A stretch of 22,916 bases of DNA, from the IMG/VR virus record IMGVR_UViG_3300030331_001578, positions 1-22,916 of that record. One strand, given 5' to 3'. The DNA is from a virus. Shown here piece after piece: positions 3,430 to 12,979 of the stretch. Below the pieces are notes generated by a model that did not search any database, was not told the DNA's origin, and was given only the letters and a program-made list of their open reading frames with translations. Each line of letters opens with the position of its first letter. Positions within the stretch are counted from its first letter, which is position 1. The translations under genes were made by a program, and so were the position numbers.

Positions 3430-5289
3430 ATGAAAGATATATTGTCGGATATTACCGTACACATGAAGTACGCTAAATATATTCCTGAATTAAATAGGAG
3501 AGAGACTTGGGAAGAACTTGTAACTCGTAATAAAGAGATGCATCAAAAGAAATATCCTAAGTTAGCTGACGATATTGAAAACATATACAAACTAGTATAT
3601 AATAAAAAGGTTTTGCCTTCTATGCGTAGCTTACAGTTTTCTGGTAAGCCAATAGAGTTATCACCTAATAGATTATATAACTGTAGTTACCTACCTATTG
3701 ATTCAATAGAATCATTTAATGAGTGTATGTTTTTATTATTGTCTGGTTGCGGTGTTGGTTACTCAGTACAACAACATCATATAAAACAATTACCATCAAT
3801 TATTAAACCGTTTGAAAAACGTAAAAGACGTTTTGTTGTTGGCGATAGTATTGAAGGTTGGTCTGATGCAATCAAAGTCTTAATTAAGTCTTATTTAGGT
3901 TCTAAGAGATCATCTAAGATAAAATTTGATTATTCTGATATTAGACCAAAAGGAGCTAGGCTTGTGACCTCTGGCGGTAAAGCGCCTGGCCCACAACCAT
4001 TAAAAGAGTGTTTAGTAAAAATTCAAGGTATATTAGATGAAAAACAAGACGGAACATATCTCAGTTCGCTTGAAGCTCATGATATTGTTTGTCATATCGC
4101 TGATGCTGTACTTGCAGGCGGTATTAGACGGGCTGCTTTAATATCTTTGTTTTCAGCGTATGATGAAGAAATGATAGCCTGTAAATCAGGTAGCTGGTGG
4201 GAAACAAACCCACAGCGTGGTAGAGCTAACAACTCAGCTGTACTTATTAGACACAAAATTACAAAAGAGTTCTTTATGGACTTATGGAAACGTATTGAGC
4301 TGTCTGGTTCAGGTGAGCCTGGTATCTACCTTAATAATGATAAAGACTGGGGTACAAACCCATGCTGTGAAATAGCATTACGTCCTTATCAATTTTGTAA
4401 CCTATGTGAAGTTAATGTATCAGATATAGCAGATCAAGAAGAGCTAAATACAAGAGTTAAAGCTGCTGCATTTATAGGTACGCTACAAGCTGGTTACACA
4501 GACTTTCATTATTTACGTGAAGTCTGGAGAGAGACAACTGAAAAAGATGCTCTCATTGGTGTATCAATGACAGGGATAGCTTCTAAAAAGGTGCTAGAAC
4601 TTGATATGAAGAAAGCCGCAGAGATGGTAAAACGTGAGAACACAAGAGTAGCTAAGTTAATTGGCATTAACAAAGCCGCACGTACAACCTGCGTGAAGCC
4701 TGCAGGTACGACTTCTCTGGTACTCGGAACTTCATCCGGTATTCATGCATGGCATAATGATTATTATGTCCGTAGATTACGCGTAGGAAAAAACGAAGCG
4801 ATATATTCGTATCTATCGATTCATCTTCCTGAGCTAGTCAAAGATGAATATTTCAGACCACACGATACCGCTGTTATTGAAATACCACAACACGCGCCAA
4901 AAGGTTCTATTGTCCGAACTGAGTCTGCGTTTGATTTACTCGAAAGAGTTAAACAAGTTTCTGATGAGTGGGTTAAACCTGGTCACAGAGCTGGAAGCAA
5001 CACTCATAACGTATCTGCTACTATATCTTTGAAAGAAGATGAGTGGGATAAAGCTGGTGAGTGGATGTGGAACAACCGTGACTGCTACAACGGTTTATCA
5101 GTATTACCTTATGATGGTGGTACATACACTCAAGCTCCGTTTGAAGATATATCTAAAAGCGAATATAATGAGCGTATGAAACATTTATCTGTAGTTAATC
5201 TTGAAAATGTAGTAGAAATGAACGATAACACAGATCTATCAGGCGAGCTTGCTTGTGCTGGTGGTAGCTGTGAAGTAACTAATCTTTAA
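3430..5289 (+). CDS. nrdJ: Class II adenosylcobalamin-dependent ribonucleoside-triphosphate reductase
   Basis: It reduces ribonucleotides to deoxyribonucleotides using a thiyl radical made from adenosylcobalamin. Key residues match the monomeric Lactobacillus RTPR: Cys85 in RLYNCSYLP (RTPR C119), NPCCEIAL with radical Cys312 and Glu314 (C408 and the NxCxE motif), FCNL with Cys323 (C419, same 11-residue spacing), and a C-terminal CAGGSC pair, Cys609 and Cys614 (C731/C736, same CX4C spacing) that relays electrons. KPAGTTSLVLGTSSGIH (423-439) and the following YYVRR are core-barrel hallmarks. At 619 aa it is about 120 residues shorter than the Lactobacillus enzyme. No small-subunit gene is nearby, as expected for class II. 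It would supply dNTPs alongside the thymidylate synthase. The start at 3430, three bases after the preceding stop, gives a plausible N-terminus. Confidence 0.93.
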   Translation: MKDILSDITVHMKYAKYIPELNRRETWEELVTRNKEMHQKKYPKLADDIENIYKLVYNKKVLPSMRSLQFSGKPIELSPNRLYNCSYLPIDSIESFNECMFLLLSGCGVGYSVQQHHIKQLPSIIKPFEKRKRRFVVGDSIEGWSDAIKVLIKSYLGSKRSSKIKFDYSDIRPKGARLVTSGGKAPGPQPLKECLVKIQGILDEKQDGTYLSSLEAHDIVCHIADAVLAGGIRRAALISLFSAYDEEMIACKSGSWWETNPQRGRANNSAVLIRHKITKEFFMDLWKRIELSGSGEPGIYLNNDKDWGTNPCCEIALRPYQFCNLCEVNVSDIADQEELNTRVKAAAFIGTLQAGYTDFHYLREVWRETTEKDALIGVSMTGIASKKVLELDMKKAAEMVKRENTRVAKLIGINKAARTTCVKPAGTTSLVLGTSSGIHAWHNDYYVRRLRVGKNEAIYSYLSIHLPELVKDEYFRPHDTAVIEIPQHAPKGSIVRTESAFDLLERVKQVSDEWVKPGHRAGSNTHNVSATISLKEDEWDKAGEWMWNNRDCYNGLSVLPYDGGTYTQAPFEDISKSEYNERMKHLSVVNLENVVEMNDNTDLSGELACAGGSCEVTNL

Positions 5290-6857: not shown

Positions 6858-7379
6858 TTAACAGTTCCATCTGCGTCTAGCAGCTAAACCTCTTTTACTT
6901 TTCCATTTTTTTGATCTAGCGCAAAACGATTTTCTACGTTTAGCAGCTTTGCTACCTGGTTTTAATTTTGAAGGTGGTGTAGTTACAGCTGTTTTAAGTT
7001 TGCTACCCGGGTTTTTACGTTTATATTCATCAACACCTTTTTGCGTCATACCACCACCAGCTTTAGCGCCAGTACCTGTAGATTTAGCTTTATTAAAGTT
7101 TTTACCTCTACCTATTGTTCGACGAACGTCTGGCTTTCTTTTACGCTTTTTTAATGGCGTTTCTATAACTTGATCACCAGGAAAGTTATAATTATTTTCA
7201 GGTAACATAACTTGAGAGTTACCAAGATTATCAACACCTAAAACTGGAAAGTCAACATCTTTCATAGTAATATTACCAGATGGTATAACGTTATAACTAT
7301 TGTTAACATCTGGACTATTTCTTTGATAACCTTCTTGGCTTTGTTTAAAGCCTGAAAAACCTTTCATCTTAAACGCCAT
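6858..7379 (-). CDS. Basic phage protein with C-terminal KAAKRRKSFCAR motif, 173 aa
   Basis: The N-terminus begins MAFKMKGFSGFK, a start shared in part with the 71-aa gene at 12140-12355. A polar, Asn-rich middle (SPDVNNSYNVIPSGNITM) probably lacks stable structure. The last 65 residues are highly basic: GGGMTQKGVDEYKRKNPGSK, then KAAKRRKSFCARSKKWKSKR, ending in WNC. This GxxxKGxxxYxxxNPGSKL...KAAKRRKSFCAR...RxWNC arrangement is one I recall as recurring at the C-termini of small marine-phage proteins. The two Cys (in SFCAR and the terminal WNC) may be functional. The ATG lies 11 bases inside the upstream PAP2 gene. No enzymatic motif is seen. Confidence 0.75.
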   Translation of the reverse strand: MAFKMKGFSGFKQSQEGYQRNSPDVNNSYNVIPSGNITMKDVDFPVLGVDNLGNSQVMLPENNYNFPGDQVIETPLKKRKRKPDVRRTIGRGKNFNKAKSTGTGAKAGGGMTQKGVDEYKRKNPGSKLKTAVTTPPSKLKPGSKAAKRRKSFCARSKKWKSKRGLAARRRWNC

Positions 7380-7914
7380 AGTTTTCTTTTAAATAATTAT
7401 ACATTTCTCTACCTAATAGTTTACCAAACTTACTATCAGATCTATAATGACATCTAGCTATATTTCTACTATAAGATATGTCGTTAGCAGCTTTAATAAA
7501 TATATCTTTGTATTTAGGATATATATCTCCTAGTACATGAGCTATTAAATAAGCTTGTGTTGAATGACCTGATGGGTAAGAAGGTGTTTTCATAGAGTCT
7601 AGCTCTACGTTAGGTAGTTTAATTCCTAACTTAATAGCTAAATCTTTAGGTCTTGGTCTATTAAAAAACTCTTTTATATCCATAATTACAGGTGCAGATT
7701 CTTTTATTAACTTATCTATTAAACCTTGAGGAACATCAACTCCTACTTTTTCACCTGCTTTTTTAAATGTTTCAAGAGTGTTATCTTTATCTTTTATAAA
7801 TCTTCTATTAATAGGTATTTTTTTTAATTCTTTTATTTCTTGCATAGTAGTAAAAGAACCATTTGCCGGTGGATTTTTCTTATAATATTTAGTTATGTCA
7901 AATTCTTTAAACAT
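7369..7914 (-). CDS. PAP2-superfamily phosphatase (class A acid phosphatase-like)
   Basis: All three PAP2/class A acid phosphatase motifs are present with exact spacing: K81 EFFNRP R88 P89 (KX6RP), PSGH at 114-117, and S149 R150 NIARC H156 YRS D160 (SRX5HX3D). His156 would be the nucleophile and His117 the general acid. The family dephosphorylates lipid phosphates, small phosphate esters or nucleotides. At 181 aa it has only the catalytic helical core. I see neither a signal peptide nor the multiple membrane helices of lipid phosphatases, so a soluble cytoplasmic or virion enzyme is more likely than a membrane one. It sits between small virion-like genes and the basic-protein run and is coupled to its upstream neighbour by TAATG. 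The substrate is unknown. Confidence 0.87.
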   Translation of the reverse strand: MFKEFDITKYYKKNPPANGSFTTMQEIKELKKIPINRRFIKDKDNTLETFKKAGEKVGVDVPQGLIDKLIKESAPVIMDIKEFFNRPRPKDLAIKLGIKLPNVELDSMKTPSYPSGHSTQAYLIAHVLGDIYPKYKDIFIKAANDISYSRNIARCHYRSDSKFGKLLGREMYNYLKENYGV

Positions 7915-8776: not shown

Positions 8777-9291
8777 TATAAATCGTATGCTATTAATATT
8801 TCTACATTTGTACTTGCACCAGAAGATTTTATTTGTACTTCATCAGCAGAAGCAGCGAGTCCAGTAACGTTTTGAGTTCCTTGAACAACATCAGCAGCAG
8901 CAGAAGTTGTAGAGCTATTAACATCAAAAGTAAAACCTGACGTACCACTATGAACAAAATATATAGCTTGACCAGTACTACAAAAGTAATTAGCTTGTTT
9001 GTTATTAGTAGCATCACTAAGTTGTACAGTTAAAGTTCTACTAGCTGTAGTAGGTCTTATTCTCATATATTTAACTTTTTGCTTATCATATAAACCCATA
9101 CCAGGAGTAGCTCCATTTTCAAACTTAGCTAGTTGAACAAATGCCGTACCTATAATTAAAGTTTGAGCTATGTATGCATTAACATTTGCTATTTCAAGAT
9201 CATCAGAAGCGTCTGATGTAGTATAGTTATAATCATAACCTCCGTAAGTTAAATCAATATTCTCTGTTATGCTAAGTTTTAAAGTTCCCAT
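8776..9291 (-). CDS. Probable small virion protein, 171 aa
   Basis: This is an acidic, Thr/Ser/Ala-rich, strand-dominated protein (MGTLKLSITENIDLTYGGYD; VKYMRIRPTTASRTLTVQLS; VEILIAYDL at the end). The pattern is that of a compact beta-sandwich, such as small capsid-decoration or tail-associated proteins of marine phages, but no named family is recognised. It has one Cys (NYFCSTGQAIYFVHSG). It lies between the DUF5675-like gene and another beta-rich gene, joined to both by one-base TAATG overlaps. Function is inferred only from composition and position. Confidence 0.65.
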   Translation of the reverse strand: MGTLKLSITENIDLTYGGYDYNYTTSDASDDLEIANVNAYIAQTLIIGTAFVQLAKFENGATPGMGLYDKQKVKYMRIRPTTASRTLTVQLSDATNNKQANYFCSTGQAIYFVHSGTSGFTFDVNSSTTSAAADVVQGTQNVTGLAASADEVQIKSSGASTNVEILIAYDL

Positions 9292-9758
9292 TAGTCGTAA
9301 TCTTTATATGTTATTGTAACTTCTTCACCATCTGCTATGGCTTTTGCAATACTAGGATAAATCCTTTTATACGCGTTAACACTTTTTCCAACAAACCCAT
9401 CTGGTAATAATAAGTTGTTCTCTTGCGCATCACCAACAATAAGACACCCAGCAGTGTGCTCGTCAGTATTTCCGGTATGTATAAGAATATACTCAAAGTT
9501 AGGAACATCAGTGATATGAAGCATACCACGGTGTATACCAGGATATTTCTTAGTGTATCTACCATGAAAGCCACCTTCAGTTCTTAATTCAATTTTATAT
9601 GTACCAGCAGGTACACGTGTTTCACCTTTAACTTTTAAAGCTCTACGCTCGTCCTCAAGTGTGTAACACATAAACTTTCTACCTAAGTCTGTTAACTCAA
9701 ATAATAAACCAGATGTAGAGTCAGCTTGAGAACTAAATCTTAATACTTCTAATTGCAT
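9291..9758 (-). CDS. DUF5675-like protein, candidate peptidoglycan-active or lysis-associated enzyme
   Basis: The sequence follows the DUF5675 layout: an N-terminal Phe/Leu-rich strand, CYTLEDERRA (31-40), RVPAGTYKIELRT (48-60), HGRYTKKYPGIHRGMLHI (65-82) and FEYILIHTGNTDEHTAGCLI (88-107). The last block places a His (94) and a Cys (105) in an HTGN...GC arrangement resembling the His/Cys active-site pair of L,D-transpeptidase-like folds. The family is common in phages; its activity is, as far as I know, not established. Peptidoglycan cleavage or cross-link editing at lysis or entry is an inference. At 155 aa without a signal peptide it would need a holin or virion to reach the periplasm. It is coupled by TAATG on both sides to virion-like genes. 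Confidence 0.75.
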   Translation of the reverse strand: MQLEVLRFSSQADSTSGLLFELTDLGRKFMCYTLEDERRALKVKGETRVPAGTYKIELRTEGGFHGRYTKKYPGIHRGMLHITDVPNFEYILIHTGNTDEHTAGCLIVGDAQENNLLLPDGFVGKSVNAYKRIYPSIAKAIADGEEVTITYKDYD

Positions 9759-10123
9759 TATGACTTACTAAACTGAGCAAACTCAAGTACACAAGCAGCT
9801 GTATAAGCTTCTGCTTGAACGGTCAAACCGCTATACATAGGAACAAGTGCAAACTCACCTACGTCTAATCTTATAACAGCGTTACCACCAAGTTTAATTT
9901 GTATAAACGCCGCGGCATTACTAGATGAAATATTATGTATATAAAGATAAGAAAAAGCACTATTACTAGCTAATACATCTTGAGCAGATCCAGTAGCTAT
10001 AGATTGTCTAGATAAACCTGTAGTAGGTTCGCCTACACTTAAACCTTTTGTAACGGTAAAATTCAAAGTATCAGAACCGTAGTCTGTACTTGCTAGTGTT
10101 AATGTTGGTGTTAATGTTGCCAT
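9758..10123 (-). CDS. Probable small virion protein, 121 aa
   Basis: A Thr/Ser/Ala-rich beta protein (MATLTPTLTLASTDYGSDTL; FSYLYIHNISSSNAAAFIQI; GGNAVIRLDVGEFALVPMYS). The sequence SYLYIHN...IKL and LDVGEFALVPM resembles small marine-phage proteins of the head-decoration or fibre type that I recall, with the pattern 'YLYIKN...I.I....LxxGE...P'. No export signal is seen, and the single Cys lies near the end. It follows the T9SS-protein gene by only four bases and is coupled to the DUF5675-like gene by TAATG. The structural role is inferred. Confidence 0.65.
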   Translation of the reverse strand: MATLTPTLTLASTDYGSDTLNFTVTKGLSVGEPTTGLSRQSIATGSAQDVLASNSAFSYLYIHNISSSNAAAFIQIKLGGNAVIRLDVGEFALVPMYSGLTVQAEAYTAACVLEFAQFSKS

Positions 10124-10127
10124 ATTA

Positions 10128-12140
10128 TTATTGTTTTATTATTTTTTTATTAACTTTTATATTTTCGTGTTCTATAAGTATATTATATATACCAGGACTT
10201 AATTTAAAGACATCTAAGACATTTACTTTTTTCTTAGATATAACTATATCTCCGAGCATATTAATAACTGTAATGTCAACTTTTAATCTACTATTTATGT
10301 ATATATAATCACTTGTAGGGTTTGGATATGTAACAAGACCATATCTTATCTCTATTATATCTGTAGGGCCTGACCAACCATCTTGACAATATTCGTATAA
10401 ACTTACGCAGCTCGGATCCCAAGCAACGTCACAACAGTACTCATCTACATCTATTACCCACGCAAAGCAAGGATTAGGAAGAGTATATATATCACCAACA
10501 GCACAACCAGCTGAGTATTCACAGGACGAGTCAGGTACATTAACATCCGGATCGTAGTTAATAGCAGTCGGATCATTGCAACCATAAATAGGATAGATGC
10601 AGCTACCATTATCAGTATTTGCGTCATCATCATAATTAAGTGCGGTGCTGTCCATGCATCCATAATAAAAAGGTATACAATTGCCATTATCTGTGTTAGC
10701 ATCAGGATTAAAGTTAAACATTGTTGCGTCCATACAACCGTATATAATCTCTACACAACTTCCGTCATCAGTATTTGCTAGTGGATCAAAGTTAAATGCT
10801 GTTGGATCTGTACAACCGTAAACGTAATAAATACAAGAGTTATCACTAACATTTGCTAATGAGTCATAATTCATAGCTATAATATCCATACATCCTTCAA
10901 CAATTGCAATACAAGTATCAGGTGTATTTGCTAACGGATTGTAATTAAAAGCAAACTCGTTCATACAGCCCAATACTGTAGGTATACAAGATCCTGCTAA
11001 TTCTACATTTGCAGCTGGATCATAGTTAAAAGCAGTAGAGTCCATGCAACCAAGCACGATTAAAGTAGCGCAGCTACCATCATCATAATCAGCTGCAGGA
11101 TCATACTCCAAGTATATAGGGTTTGTACAACCCGTTAAGTAGTAACAAGTACTATCATCAGTGTTAGCTAAATAATTATAATTTAAAGCTGTAGTATCGG
11201 TACAACCATAAACTCTTTCAATACAATTATTACCACAATAAGGTTCTCCTGTTATAGGAAAAAATGGTGGTATAGGATTTACAAAACCACCTTCTATGTC
11301 TATAGCTACATAATCTTCAGAATATAAACTATAACCACATTGCACAGCAGTAAAATCTGACTGTTGTGTTATTTCAAAAACTACTCTTACAGGATAACCT
11401 GCTGCTAAATTAACAAAAAACGTAGTATCAAAACCATCTATCAAAGTATAAGTTCCAATGTCTTGATAATTAAACGGTGGTAATAAGCTTGTTGCTTGTG
11501 ATAACTTTAAACTAGATCCAGCCCAACCGTTACCAGCTAAATCTGTTAGTTCTAACTCATGCATACAGCTGTCAATGTTAATGTCTGTATTAGCTGAGTC
11601 TAAATAATTATATGCTAGCGAGTCTGTACAACCGTAAATTTTTGGTGTAAAACACATACCTGTGTCTAGTGTAGCCGCTATGTCAAACTCTACATAGCTA
11701 GGGTCCATACAACCAAATACTGGTGGTGGCGGAGGACAACCTGATGTATATATTGTATCAAATATTTGATAACCAAAATCAGCTACAGGTAAACTCCATA
11801 TAGTGTCACCACATTGCTCTATGTAAACAGAACCATCATTACCACCCCATAAACTACCAGCAACACCATCACCATACAAATCGTCTATAACAATATAAAA
11901 GCTGTCAATAGGTGCGCAGGCCGCAGCATATTGTGGTTCGTAATCTATAATATTTGCATAAGGACCACCTTGCATTAGTGTATCACCAAAGAAAGTCATT
12001 ATATACCAAGACGTTTCTTCTGGATATTGATCAGGGTTAATAGTAACATTCAAACTCCAAGTACCTGGAGGACACTGACCAAAAGCCGCTGCTACAGCAA
12101 GCCAAAAAATTAATACAAATATGTATGCTAGTTTTTTCAT
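10128..12140 (-). CDS. Exported surface protein with 11 GCxD...GSC repeats and a T9SS type A sorting domain
   Basis: Order: signal peptide (1-21, cut before Gln22: AAAFG|Q); an N-terminal beta module (about 23-135) with PEETSWYI and DDLYGDGVAG, a pattern frequent in Bacteroidetes secreted proteins; two repeats at about 143-192; a second beta module (about 193-305, with LTDLAGNGWAGSS); nine consecutive repeats (312-540); a Cys-rich segment (EYCCDVAWDPSCVSLYEYC, 567-585); and a C-terminal domain (604-670) with YPNPTSDYIYI, INMLGDIV and LSPGIYNILI, ending KKIIKQ. That last domain matches the T9SS type A sorting domain, which directs proteins through the outer membrane for display or release. The product should therefore reach the host cell surface. 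The repeat is one I know from marine flavobacterial surface proteins. A virion-borne adhesin, receptor masking or superinfection blocking are all possible; none is shown. Host acquisition is likely. Confidence 0.88.
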   Translation of the reverse strand: MKKLAYIFVLIFWLAVAAAFGQCPPGTWSLNVTINPDQYPEETSWYIMTFFGDTLMQGGPYANIIDYEPQYAAACAPIDSFYIVIDDLYGDGVAGSLWGGNDGSVYIEQCGDTIWSLPVADFGYQIFDTIYTSGCPPPPPVFGCMDPSYVEFDIAATLDTGMCFTPKIYGCTDSLAYNYLDSANTDINIDSCMHELELTDLAGNGWAGSSLKLSQATSLLPPFNYQDIGTYTLIDGFDTTFFVNLAAGYPVRVVFEITQQSDFTAVQCGYSLYSEDYVAIDIEGGFVNPIPPFFPITGEPYCGNNCIERVYGCTDTTALNYNYLANTDDSTCYYLTGCTNPIYLEYDPAADYDDGSCATLIVLGCMDSTAFNYDPAANVELAGSCIPTVLGCMNEFAFNYNPLANTPDTCIAIVEGCMDIIAMNYDSLANVSDNSCIYYVYGCTDPTAFNFDPLANTDDGSCVEIIYGCMDATMFNFNPDANTDNGNCIPFYYGCMDSTALNYDDDANTDNGSCIYPIYGCNDPTAINYDPDVNVPDSSCEYSAGCAVGDIYTLPNPCFAWVIDVDEYCCDVAWDPSCVSLYEYCQDGWSGPTDIIEIRYGLVTYPNPTSDYIYINSRLKVDITVINMLGDIVISKKKVNVLDVFKLSPGIYNILIEHENIKVNKKIIKQ
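10521..11207 (-). repeat. Nine tandem 25-27-codon repeats coding for GCxDxxAxNYDPxANxDDGSC units
   Basis: Within the T9SS protein, repeat starts fall at residues 312, 337, 364, 391, 416, 442, 468, 494 and 520, a period of 25 to 27 residues (75 to 81 bases). Each unit has two Cys about 19 to 21 residues apart and an Asp/Asn-rich acidic loop, suggestive of a disulfide-closed, possibly calcium-binding module. Two further units lie apart, at residues 143-163 and 170-192. DNA identity between units is only moderate, so these are old protein repeats rather than a fresh DNA duplication. Confidence 0.85.
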
Positions 12141-12355
12141 TATTCTTCTTTGCTAGGTTTTATGTATGTGTAAGTATATTTACCTGTTTCTTTGTCGTAA
12201 GTTAACTTAGTGTCGTTAGGTATTCTACCACCTACTTTTCTTTGAAACTTTTTTTTAGCAACATTTTGATCTATGCTACTAGCTGTTATAGTGTCAGAAA
12301 CGCTTTTTAAATCGTCTGTTAACTCTTTAAAAGAGCTTTTCATTTTAAACGCCAT
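12140..12355 (-). CDS. Small basic hypothetical protein, 71 aa
   Basis: I do not recognise this protein. It begins MAFKMKSSFKELTDDLKSVS and so shares MAFKMK with the 173-aa basic protein (6858-7379). The N-terminal half is helical. The C-terminal half has a basic segment (AKKKFQRKVGGRIP) and a strand pair (TKLTYDKETGKYTYTYIKPS) like a beta hairpin. It has no Cys, signal peptide or membrane segment, so it appears cytoplasmic although its neighbours are exported. It is joined by TAATG to the T9SS-protein gene downstream, so its translation may set the level of that protein. Confidence 0.65.
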   Translation of the reverse strand: MAFKMKSSFKELTDDLKSVSDTITASSIDQNVAKKKFQRKVGGRIPNDTKLTYDKETGKYTYTYIKPSKEE

Positions 12356-12359
12356 AATA

Positions 12360-12704
12360 TTAGAATTTACTTATTATTAATTCGTCTATATATTCTTGTA
12401 TCTCTTCTCTAGTAGCTACCATTTTAAAACTAAGATCTGCTTGAAATCTTTTTACTTCTTCGCCATCATCAAACACAATGATAGTAGGTACAATAGCAAT
12501 AGAATATTTAGTTTGTATATCACCATCATCAATACTTAAACTTTTTTTATTAGCATCAGATAATTTATTAAACCACTCAACATCATTAGCTGAGTTCCAA
12601 CCAGCATTAAAGTGTACTACTTTTACTTGACTAAAAGCTGTAGCTGCTGTAAACACTAATATCATAATTAGTGCGTACAAATATTTTGCTATACACACTT
12701 TCAT
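12360..12704 (-). CDS. Exported thioredoxin-fold protein lacking the catalytic cysteines
   Basis: A signal peptide (1-25) with a hydrophobic core (ALIMILVFTAATA) ends AFS|Q, predicting periplasmic export. The remaining 89 residues read as a minimal thioredoxin fold: strand VKVVHFNAGW (27-36), in which HFNAGW corresponds to the F.A.W before the active site; IAIVPTIIVFDDGEEV (69-84), with the cis-proline at Pro73; and a C-terminal helix (REEIQEYIDELI). The CxxC site is replaced by N37-S-A-N40, and the mature protein has no Cys, so it cannot do thiol-disulfide exchange. A chaperone-like or binding role is more likely. It lies between a one-helix membrane protein and the genes leading to the Cys-rich T9SS protein. 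The fold is confident from motif order; the function is unknown. Confidence 0.8.
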   Translation of the reverse strand: MKVCIAKYLYALIMILVFTAATAFSQVKVVHFNAGWNSANDVEWFNKLSDANKKSLSIDDGDIQTKYSIAIVPTIIVFDDGEEVKRFQADLSFKMVATREEIQEYIDELIISKF

Positions 12705-12979
12705 TATCGTAGCTGATCAATCTTATCTTCTATACGTCTGATGTCTTCTTTTATTTCTTTAACATCTTCTTGTGTAGTCATAATAGTTTGTCGTACGTTT
12801 TGATCTTTCATATCAAACTCCATACGAGTAATGTCAGGTTTAGGAAGCTCTTTAGCTTCAGATATATCTGCTTGCAAAGCAAACCACATACCTATAATTG
12901 TAGCCATACCAAAACCTATAGCTATTAGTGTCTGTATACTAACTTTAAAGCTAGTGTTTTCATTTAATTCTTTTGCCAT
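12704..12979 (-). CDS. Single-pass membrane protein with coiled-coil tail, holin/spanin candidate
   Basis: The 91-residue protein has a short polar N-terminus, one hydrophobic helix (about residues 13-35, IQTLIAIGFGMATIIGMWFA), the linker LQADISEAKELPKPDITRME, and a charged heptad-like C-terminal helix (EDVKEIKEDIRRIEDKIDQL) suggestive of a coiled coil. Small one-helix proteins of this type are common near lysis genes in marine phages, and a holin, spanin-like or membrane-anchor role is possible. The likely topology leaves a coiled coil of about 40 residues outside the membrane that could bind a partner such as the exported neighbours. It is coupled by TAATG to the thioredoxin-fold gene and starts four bases after the outer-membrane-like gene. 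Confidence 0.75.
   Translation of the reverse strand: MAKELNENTSFKVSIQTLIAIGFGMATIIGMWFALQADISEAKELPKPDITRMEFDMKDQNVRQTIMTTQEDVKEIKEDIRRIEDKIDQLR

Follow-up and report, generated by a model that had tools for sequence, protein, structure and literature searches.

What does a phage gain from a protein that carries a sorting signal for the type IX secretion system (T9SS) of its host? The question is raised by a gene in the window, by which we mean the whole stretch of DNA analysed, 22,916 bases of the IMG/VR virus record IMGVR_UViG_3300030331_001578. An earlier note, made from the letters alone, had read this gene as a phage late gene for a cell-surface protein exported by T9SS. Its phage origin, sorting domain, recurrence and late-operon setting all stood up to analysis, and neither outcome that the note had named as a refutation came about; the surface location and the roles that it suggested (receptor masking, a block to superinfection, cell aggregation or virion tethering) stand as hypotheses. 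The unit, on the other hand, turned out to be a linked block of four proteins, all exported or membrane-bound by prediction, and not a single gene.

Phage origin and layout of the locus

The cargo gene is a real open reading frame on the minus strand (12140 to 10128), with the position and the 670-aa product first described (Table 1). The window itself encodes a phage-type adenosylcobalamin-dependent ribonucleotide reductase (RNR) and a primase/helicase fragment; terminase and portal are found in sister contigs and not in these 23 kb. A sister contig (L002/G001) has a cargo gene 90% identical in the same run of neighbours and also carries a terminase (phrog_6681), a portal (phrog_6547), virion structural genes and GroEL, which bears out the phage origin. 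The phrog_6681 terminase was present in 40 of the 48 long sister contigs, and the phrog_6547 portal in 38 of 38 sister contigs. PF03237 detected none of 44 such terminases, which are detected by phrog_6681. The nearest relatives of the G072 terminase are crAss-like phages of gut and flavobacterial hosts, and those of the G001 portal are Manatee Spring podovirus, Maribacter phage Panino, Flavobacterium phage elemo and Cellulophaga phages. Judged by terminase and portal, the sister contigs are crAss-like phages.

The modules of the cargo protein resemble flavobacterial secreted proteins, as might be expected if the contig were a fragment of host chromosome or a chimera. There is practically no chance that this is so. 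Dozens of independent viral contigs in which crAss-like terminase and portal are present show the same synteny, which rules out host contamination or chimerism, and a search of 84,980 genomes of bacteria and archaea found the barrel gene of the block in only four contigs, all from metagenome-assembled genomes (MAGs).

The stop/start overlaps said to join the cargo gene to its operon are found upstream, where TAATG is common to the 71-aa gene and the cargo gene and where the TRX and TM91 genes overlap each other. They are not found downstream, where a gap of 4 nt separates the cargo gene from the next one. In the neighbourhood comparison the 71-aa gene falls outside the conserved block.

Table 1. 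Positions of the cargo gene, its parts and its neighbours in the window
Feature	Position	Strand	Description or evidence
T9SS type A cargo	10128..12140	-	670 aa; signal peptide, N domain, 11 repeats, C-terminal sorting domain
Cargo N domain	aa 22-135	-	within the cargo gene 10128..12140
Cargo repeats 3-11	10506..11225	-	aa 306-545, two Cys each
C-terminal sorting domain	10131..10334	-	cargo aa 603-670; PF18962, TIGR04183, Foldseek 8glk_D
71-aa gene between TRX and cargo	12140..12355	-	overlaps cargo start (TAATG)
121-aa small protein, downstream of cargo	9758..10123	-	recurrent family in neighbourhood clustering
OMP, signal peptide and predicted outer-membrane beta-barrel, 342 aa	12983..14011	-	AF2 model, PDB folds, 41 loci
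TM91, one N-terminal TM helix, then predicted coiled coil	12704..12979	-	hydropathy; conserved in 34 loci
TRX, signal peptide and thioredoxin-like domain	12360..12704	-	TIGR01068 E 6.5e-4; alignment of 19
DUF5675 protein, frequent block neighbour	9291..9758	-	PF18925 E 1.1e-26; 29 loci

The RNR (3430-5289, +) is 59-68% identical to its counterparts in Microcystis phage Mel-JY01, in an Oceanospirillum phage and in a Vibrio phage (in the latter two the protein bears the annotation recombinase), and to judge from sequence it is widely transferred between phages of unrelated hosts. The late operon includes a PAP2-superfamily phosphatase (7369-7914, -; 34.1 bits, cut-off 27.2) with no obvious TM helices. 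Small phage proteins, encoded in the window at 6858-7379 and 12140-12355 (-) and in contig L410 at 1299-1682, 1686-1955 and 3476-3844, have common ends; some begin with MAFKMK and others have the basic C-termini ARRRWNC and GARKKGATLRDWFQKEDW. These ends may be a targeting or packaging signal.

The cargo protein and its sorting domain

The cargo N-terminus, MKKLAYIFVLIFWLAVAAAFGQ, fits the proposed signal peptide by inspection, and a signal peptide is clear by eye in nearly all relatives too. Exactly 11 GC-x-[DN] repeats were counted between residues 143 and 520, in agreement with the number first given; among relatives the number varies from about 9 to 17. The protein has 35 cysteines, none of them in the C-terminal tail. 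This tail had been taken for a T9SS type A sorting domain, and profile searches agree: PF18962 matches residues 605-668 with 36.4 bits (E 6.7e-9) and TIGR04183 matches with 32.8 bits, above the curated cut-offs of 27 and 23 bits, respectively. No other protein of the 22,916-base record has a match of this type. In an AlphaFold2 model built on 29 family members, the tail has a pLDDT of 80-89 from residue 610 to residue 670. Its best PDB match by Foldseek is 8glk_D, the C-terminal domain (CTD) of NucA in the F. johnsoniae T9SS complex (TMt 0.75, E 5.4e-4). The fold matches also include 8glj_D and 8gl6_D, and CTDs of FspA, RemA and a mirolase are among them.

Across sister records PF18962 was found with E<=1e-3 in 38 of 49 and above the cut-off in 30 of 49, and several of the remaining misses are contigs that end inside the cargo gene. 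A short tail, ITDLLGRP...LLFFIYDDGTVEKKFIK, which Pfam does not score, ends at least three cassette cargoes in the first set and seven more in the second. In one Flavobacteriales MAG at least nine different proteins terminate in this tail as well, which makes it plausible as a sorting signal of the host. Relatives whose N-terminal regions are 74-82% identical can differ strongly in CTD type, so the sorting tail is, on sequence grounds, swapped for other CTD types and not lost. Codon comparison with three relatives gave dN/dS values of 0.17, 0.13 and 0.11 for the tail and 0.05-0.29 for whole genes, indicating strong purifying selection on the cargo, tail included.

The late position of the gene, and the occurrence of similar repeats in virion-like proteins, would also suit a cargo that is a component of the virion with the sorting domain as a relic. 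We find this very improbable. The family as a whole retains both signal peptide and CTD, and the CTD is under purifying selection and exchanged for other types, not lost. Export of the cargo via T9SS is, in our judgement, very probable. That the host has a T9SS we infer from the cargo and from MAG binning; three MAGs that hold cassette contigs have 15-42 PF18962 matches each.

Linkage, partners and exchange of the block

The gene does recur in related phage genomes: the scan of viral records with the cargo protein recovered relatives at 50 loci, many of them alignable over the full length. A second, independent scan of IMG/VR used the barrel alone and yielded at least 593 viral contigs that encode it, of which the best 80 relatives were analysed. 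Among these 80, 42 loci (MAG loci included) have at least 5 kb on both sides. The cargo lies within seven genes of the barrel in 41 of them, and the 42nd, L112, is on the same contig as L023, with the cargo further along; the resulting 42/42 describes the nearest barrel relatives of the query and not the whole family. TRX is present in 42 and TM91 in 39 of the same 42 loci. Contigs that differ in their other late genes have the four genes arranged as barrel, TM91, TRX, cargo, often with DUF5675 next in line, and in some contigs the arrangement is rotated (TM91-TRX-cargo-barrel or cargo-barrel-TM91-TRX). Of 17 long contigs selected by terminase, 10 have the barrel and the remaining seven may be incomplete. 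We are fairly confident that the four genes are a functional cassette.

The OMP model has modest confidence (pLDDT 68), and its best PDB folds are outer-membrane barrels (NanC, E 3.1e-5). Most of its named matches among viral structure models are also outer-membrane barrels, and a 342-aa protein in that set matches it at E 2.1e-21. One weak match to PorV (E 0.014) stands among many barrels, so the role of a PorV-like T9SS shuttle is not claimed. TM91 has a single hydrophobic segment, then a charged, heptad-like region. TRX shares with thioredoxins (PF00085 / TIGR01068) a fold match, weak under TIGR01068 itself, and the cis-Pro motif VPTI, but the active-site cysteines of thioredoxin are replaced in the phage protein by invariant asparagine: in the alignment of 19 members the CxxC site is absent, and N37-x-x-N40 is invariant at its position, with Asn at both redox positions. 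As a distant member passes the PF00085 cut-off with WNQMN (WNxxN) at the active site, a redox-inactive thioredoxin fold is well supported. The DUF5675 protein (9291-9758, -) has a HTGNTDEHTAGC motif that recalls L,D-transpeptidase-like enzymes and a weak match to Tlde1; it is possibly a peptidoglycan enzyme involved in lysis.

Several loci depart from the common layout. In L410 (240-3473) and L411 (8058-10149) barrel and TM91 are diverged, and where the cargo would stand there is a secreted protein of 230-252 aa that is unrelated to it; TRX is kept in L410, and the L411 contig ends before the TRX position. The 252-aa copy in L410 has a Cys-rich N-terminal region and the tail VIYNINGQAIKEKEGLYIEDGKIKYKLK, which gave no match to the Pfam sorting domain and looks T9SS-like by eye only. 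If that reading is true, the partner proteins serve interchangeable cargo. A cargo homologue with a sorting tail but no barrel, TM91 or TRX nearby lies in a 232-kb viral contig (L047, 9146-12517). In L038/L039 (G036/G037) the cassette stands beside NrdA/NrdB genes and there is no phrog_6681 match; these contigs possibly represent an additional type of phage that has the block. In one lineage, proteins of 1.2-1.6 kaa with GC-x-D...GSC repeats, and with neither signal peptide nor sorting tail, are encoded shortly before the barrel (L097 2290-6660, L011 291-4757, L037 353-4708 and others). A receptor-mimic pair, with cargo and virion protein as full paralogues, was rejected, since only the repeats are common to them.

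Identities were correlated across the 37 contigs with all genes. Terminase (TerL) and portal identities are tightly correlated (r = 0.99), and the block genes correlate with one another (r = 0.36-0.62) but hardly with TerL or portal (r = 0.11-0.19; 0.12-0.17 for TerL alone). Permutation in a 38-contig set gave 0/2000 for barrel-cargo, 0/2000 for barrel-TRX and 1/2000 for cargo-TRX. Between lineages TerL identity averages 23.5%, with a maximum of 31.2%, whereas barrel identity averages 66.4% between TerL lineages (up to 89.2%) and 67.1% within them, and the N region of the cargo reaches 94.8% between them. Since block identity is uncoupled from TerL and portal while its members vary together, the simplest reading is that the block has been exchanged between crAss-like lineages whose terminases are about 23% identical; strong constraint alone is insufficient to account for near-identical copies across lineages.

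At tblastn sensitivity, neither barrel nor TRX was found in 50,697 GenBank phages, and cargo, TRX and barrel have no match in PHROGs; membership in a known phage family was rejected on these results. The single cargo match in GenBank phages is a 514-aa protein with three GC repeats in a marine Kyanoviridae record, which has no cassette in the part examined and no PF18962 match anywhere. Of the cultured relatives examined none carries the cassette; neither it nor a PF18962 match was found in Panino, elemoA or MW202828. In Panino, elemoA and Manatee Spring podovirus, PF18962 had no match in the whole records and the cassette models had none in the 49-50 kb examined of each. Because these cultured relatives do without it, the cassette is not essential to this phage type; it is widespread among uncultured phages and seems dispensable.

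Possible roles and comparison with known systems

The block appears to use the infected bacterium's own T9SS to display a viral protein at the cell surface, and this display probably serves to control further infection or virus release. Our leading reading, held tentatively and at a little short of even confidence, is that marine crAss-like phages carry a late cassette of four proteins which together span the envelope and remodel the surface late in infection, and that the cargo is the one displayed at the surface. A role in exclusion or against readsorption is a possibility that we hold slightly more loosely. Late in infection, the host Sec machinery would export barrel, TRX and cargo and insert TM91. 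The Cys-rich cargo would fold in the periplasm with disulfides and then leave via the host T9SS, after which the CTD would be removed and the cargo would either stay attached at the surface or be released, with help or anchorage from the barrel, from the pseudo-thioredoxin of the periplasm and from the coiled-coil protein of the inner membrane. With the surface of the infected cell coated, or its T9SS occupied, fewer later phages would adsorb and progeny would stick less to debris. A more speculative extension is that the four genes form a phage machine spanning the whole envelope and coupled to the host T9SS, with the barrel, the redox-dead TRX and TM91 as assembly or anchoring factors for interchangeable cargo, and that phages of distant lineages swap the block so as to suit the surface of the host.

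One protein is predicted for each layer of the envelope, and the N-terminal TM helix and coiled coil of TM91 have the layout of an inner-membrane spanin. The same four proteins could thus be a complex that opens or disrupts the outer membrane at lysis, beside the DUF5675 enzyme, which occurs in 29 loci; a late operon next to a possible lysis gene fits release as well as exclusion. Nevertheless, it is not obvious why a lysis part would have to send a repeat protein with 35 cysteines out through T9SS, DUF5675 does not always lie next to the block and the cultured relatives do without the cassette; we regard a release device as unlikely. Somewhat less probable again is an adhesin, a displayed repeat protein that would hold infected cells together or bind them to particles or virions and in this way let progeny emerge close to new hosts. 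The variable number of Cys-rich repeats is in its favour, as is the same repeat type in proteins of 1.2-1.6 kaa without signal peptide, beside capsid genes in some contigs. However, the repeats alone, with no other domain, are common to these proteins and the cargo, such repeats occur in host secreted proteins too, and no ligand-binding domain is recognised in the cargo.

Surface remodelling by the displayed cargo would bear on phages and hosts of wide importance. Few bacterial viruses are as abundant as the crAss-like phages, and flavobacteria have a major part in the breakdown of polymers in the sea; loss of T9SS or gliding genes is frequent in flavobacteria that resist phages. Several flavobacterial phages need T9SS genes, and possibly adhesins that depend on T9SS, in order to infect: sprA and gld mutants of F. 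columnare are phage-resistant (PMC9233685), and the T9SS adhesins SprB and RemA are regarded as candidate receptors for phages (PMC13288928). The use of T9SS by a phage module that is itself widespread leads to a direct prediction on surface control by infected cells, and the cassette offers phage-encoded probes of T9SS cargo handling. Because it moves independently of virion genes, it could be a better marker of host range than terminase is.

Phage morons such as lambda Lom and T5 Llp are phage-encoded surface or outer-membrane proteins, some of them linked to exclusion, and by analogy the cassette may resemble them in function. We know of no moron that works through T9SS or forms a block of four genes passed between phages. 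Our searches of open-access papers turned up no account of the four-gene block. T9SS-tagged genes have been noted near BACON repeats and head genes in crAss-like cluster 2 (PMC6949934); they are named there only as neighbours, and we saw no cassette, barrel or thioredoxin described with them. As in the T9SS type A cargo of Bacteroidota (PF18962 / TIGR04183; NucA, RemA and FspA of F. johnsoniae), the phage cargo has a CTD above the cut-off, the same predicted CTD fold and, by inspection, a signal peptide, but it is encoded in a fixed, phage-specific cassette and its passenger has no known enzymatic domain. Phage-encoded T9SS cargo is known already, and there is a fair chance that the fixed, exchanged four-protein unit is new. 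Cryophage encodes three T9SS type A cargo proteins (an endoglucanase, a GH39 and a PA14 protein) for which Bellas et al. also proposed exclusion or competition (PMC7468147). Those are variable genes of one phage, whereas here a single cargo family belongs to a fixed block of four genes that many phages have.
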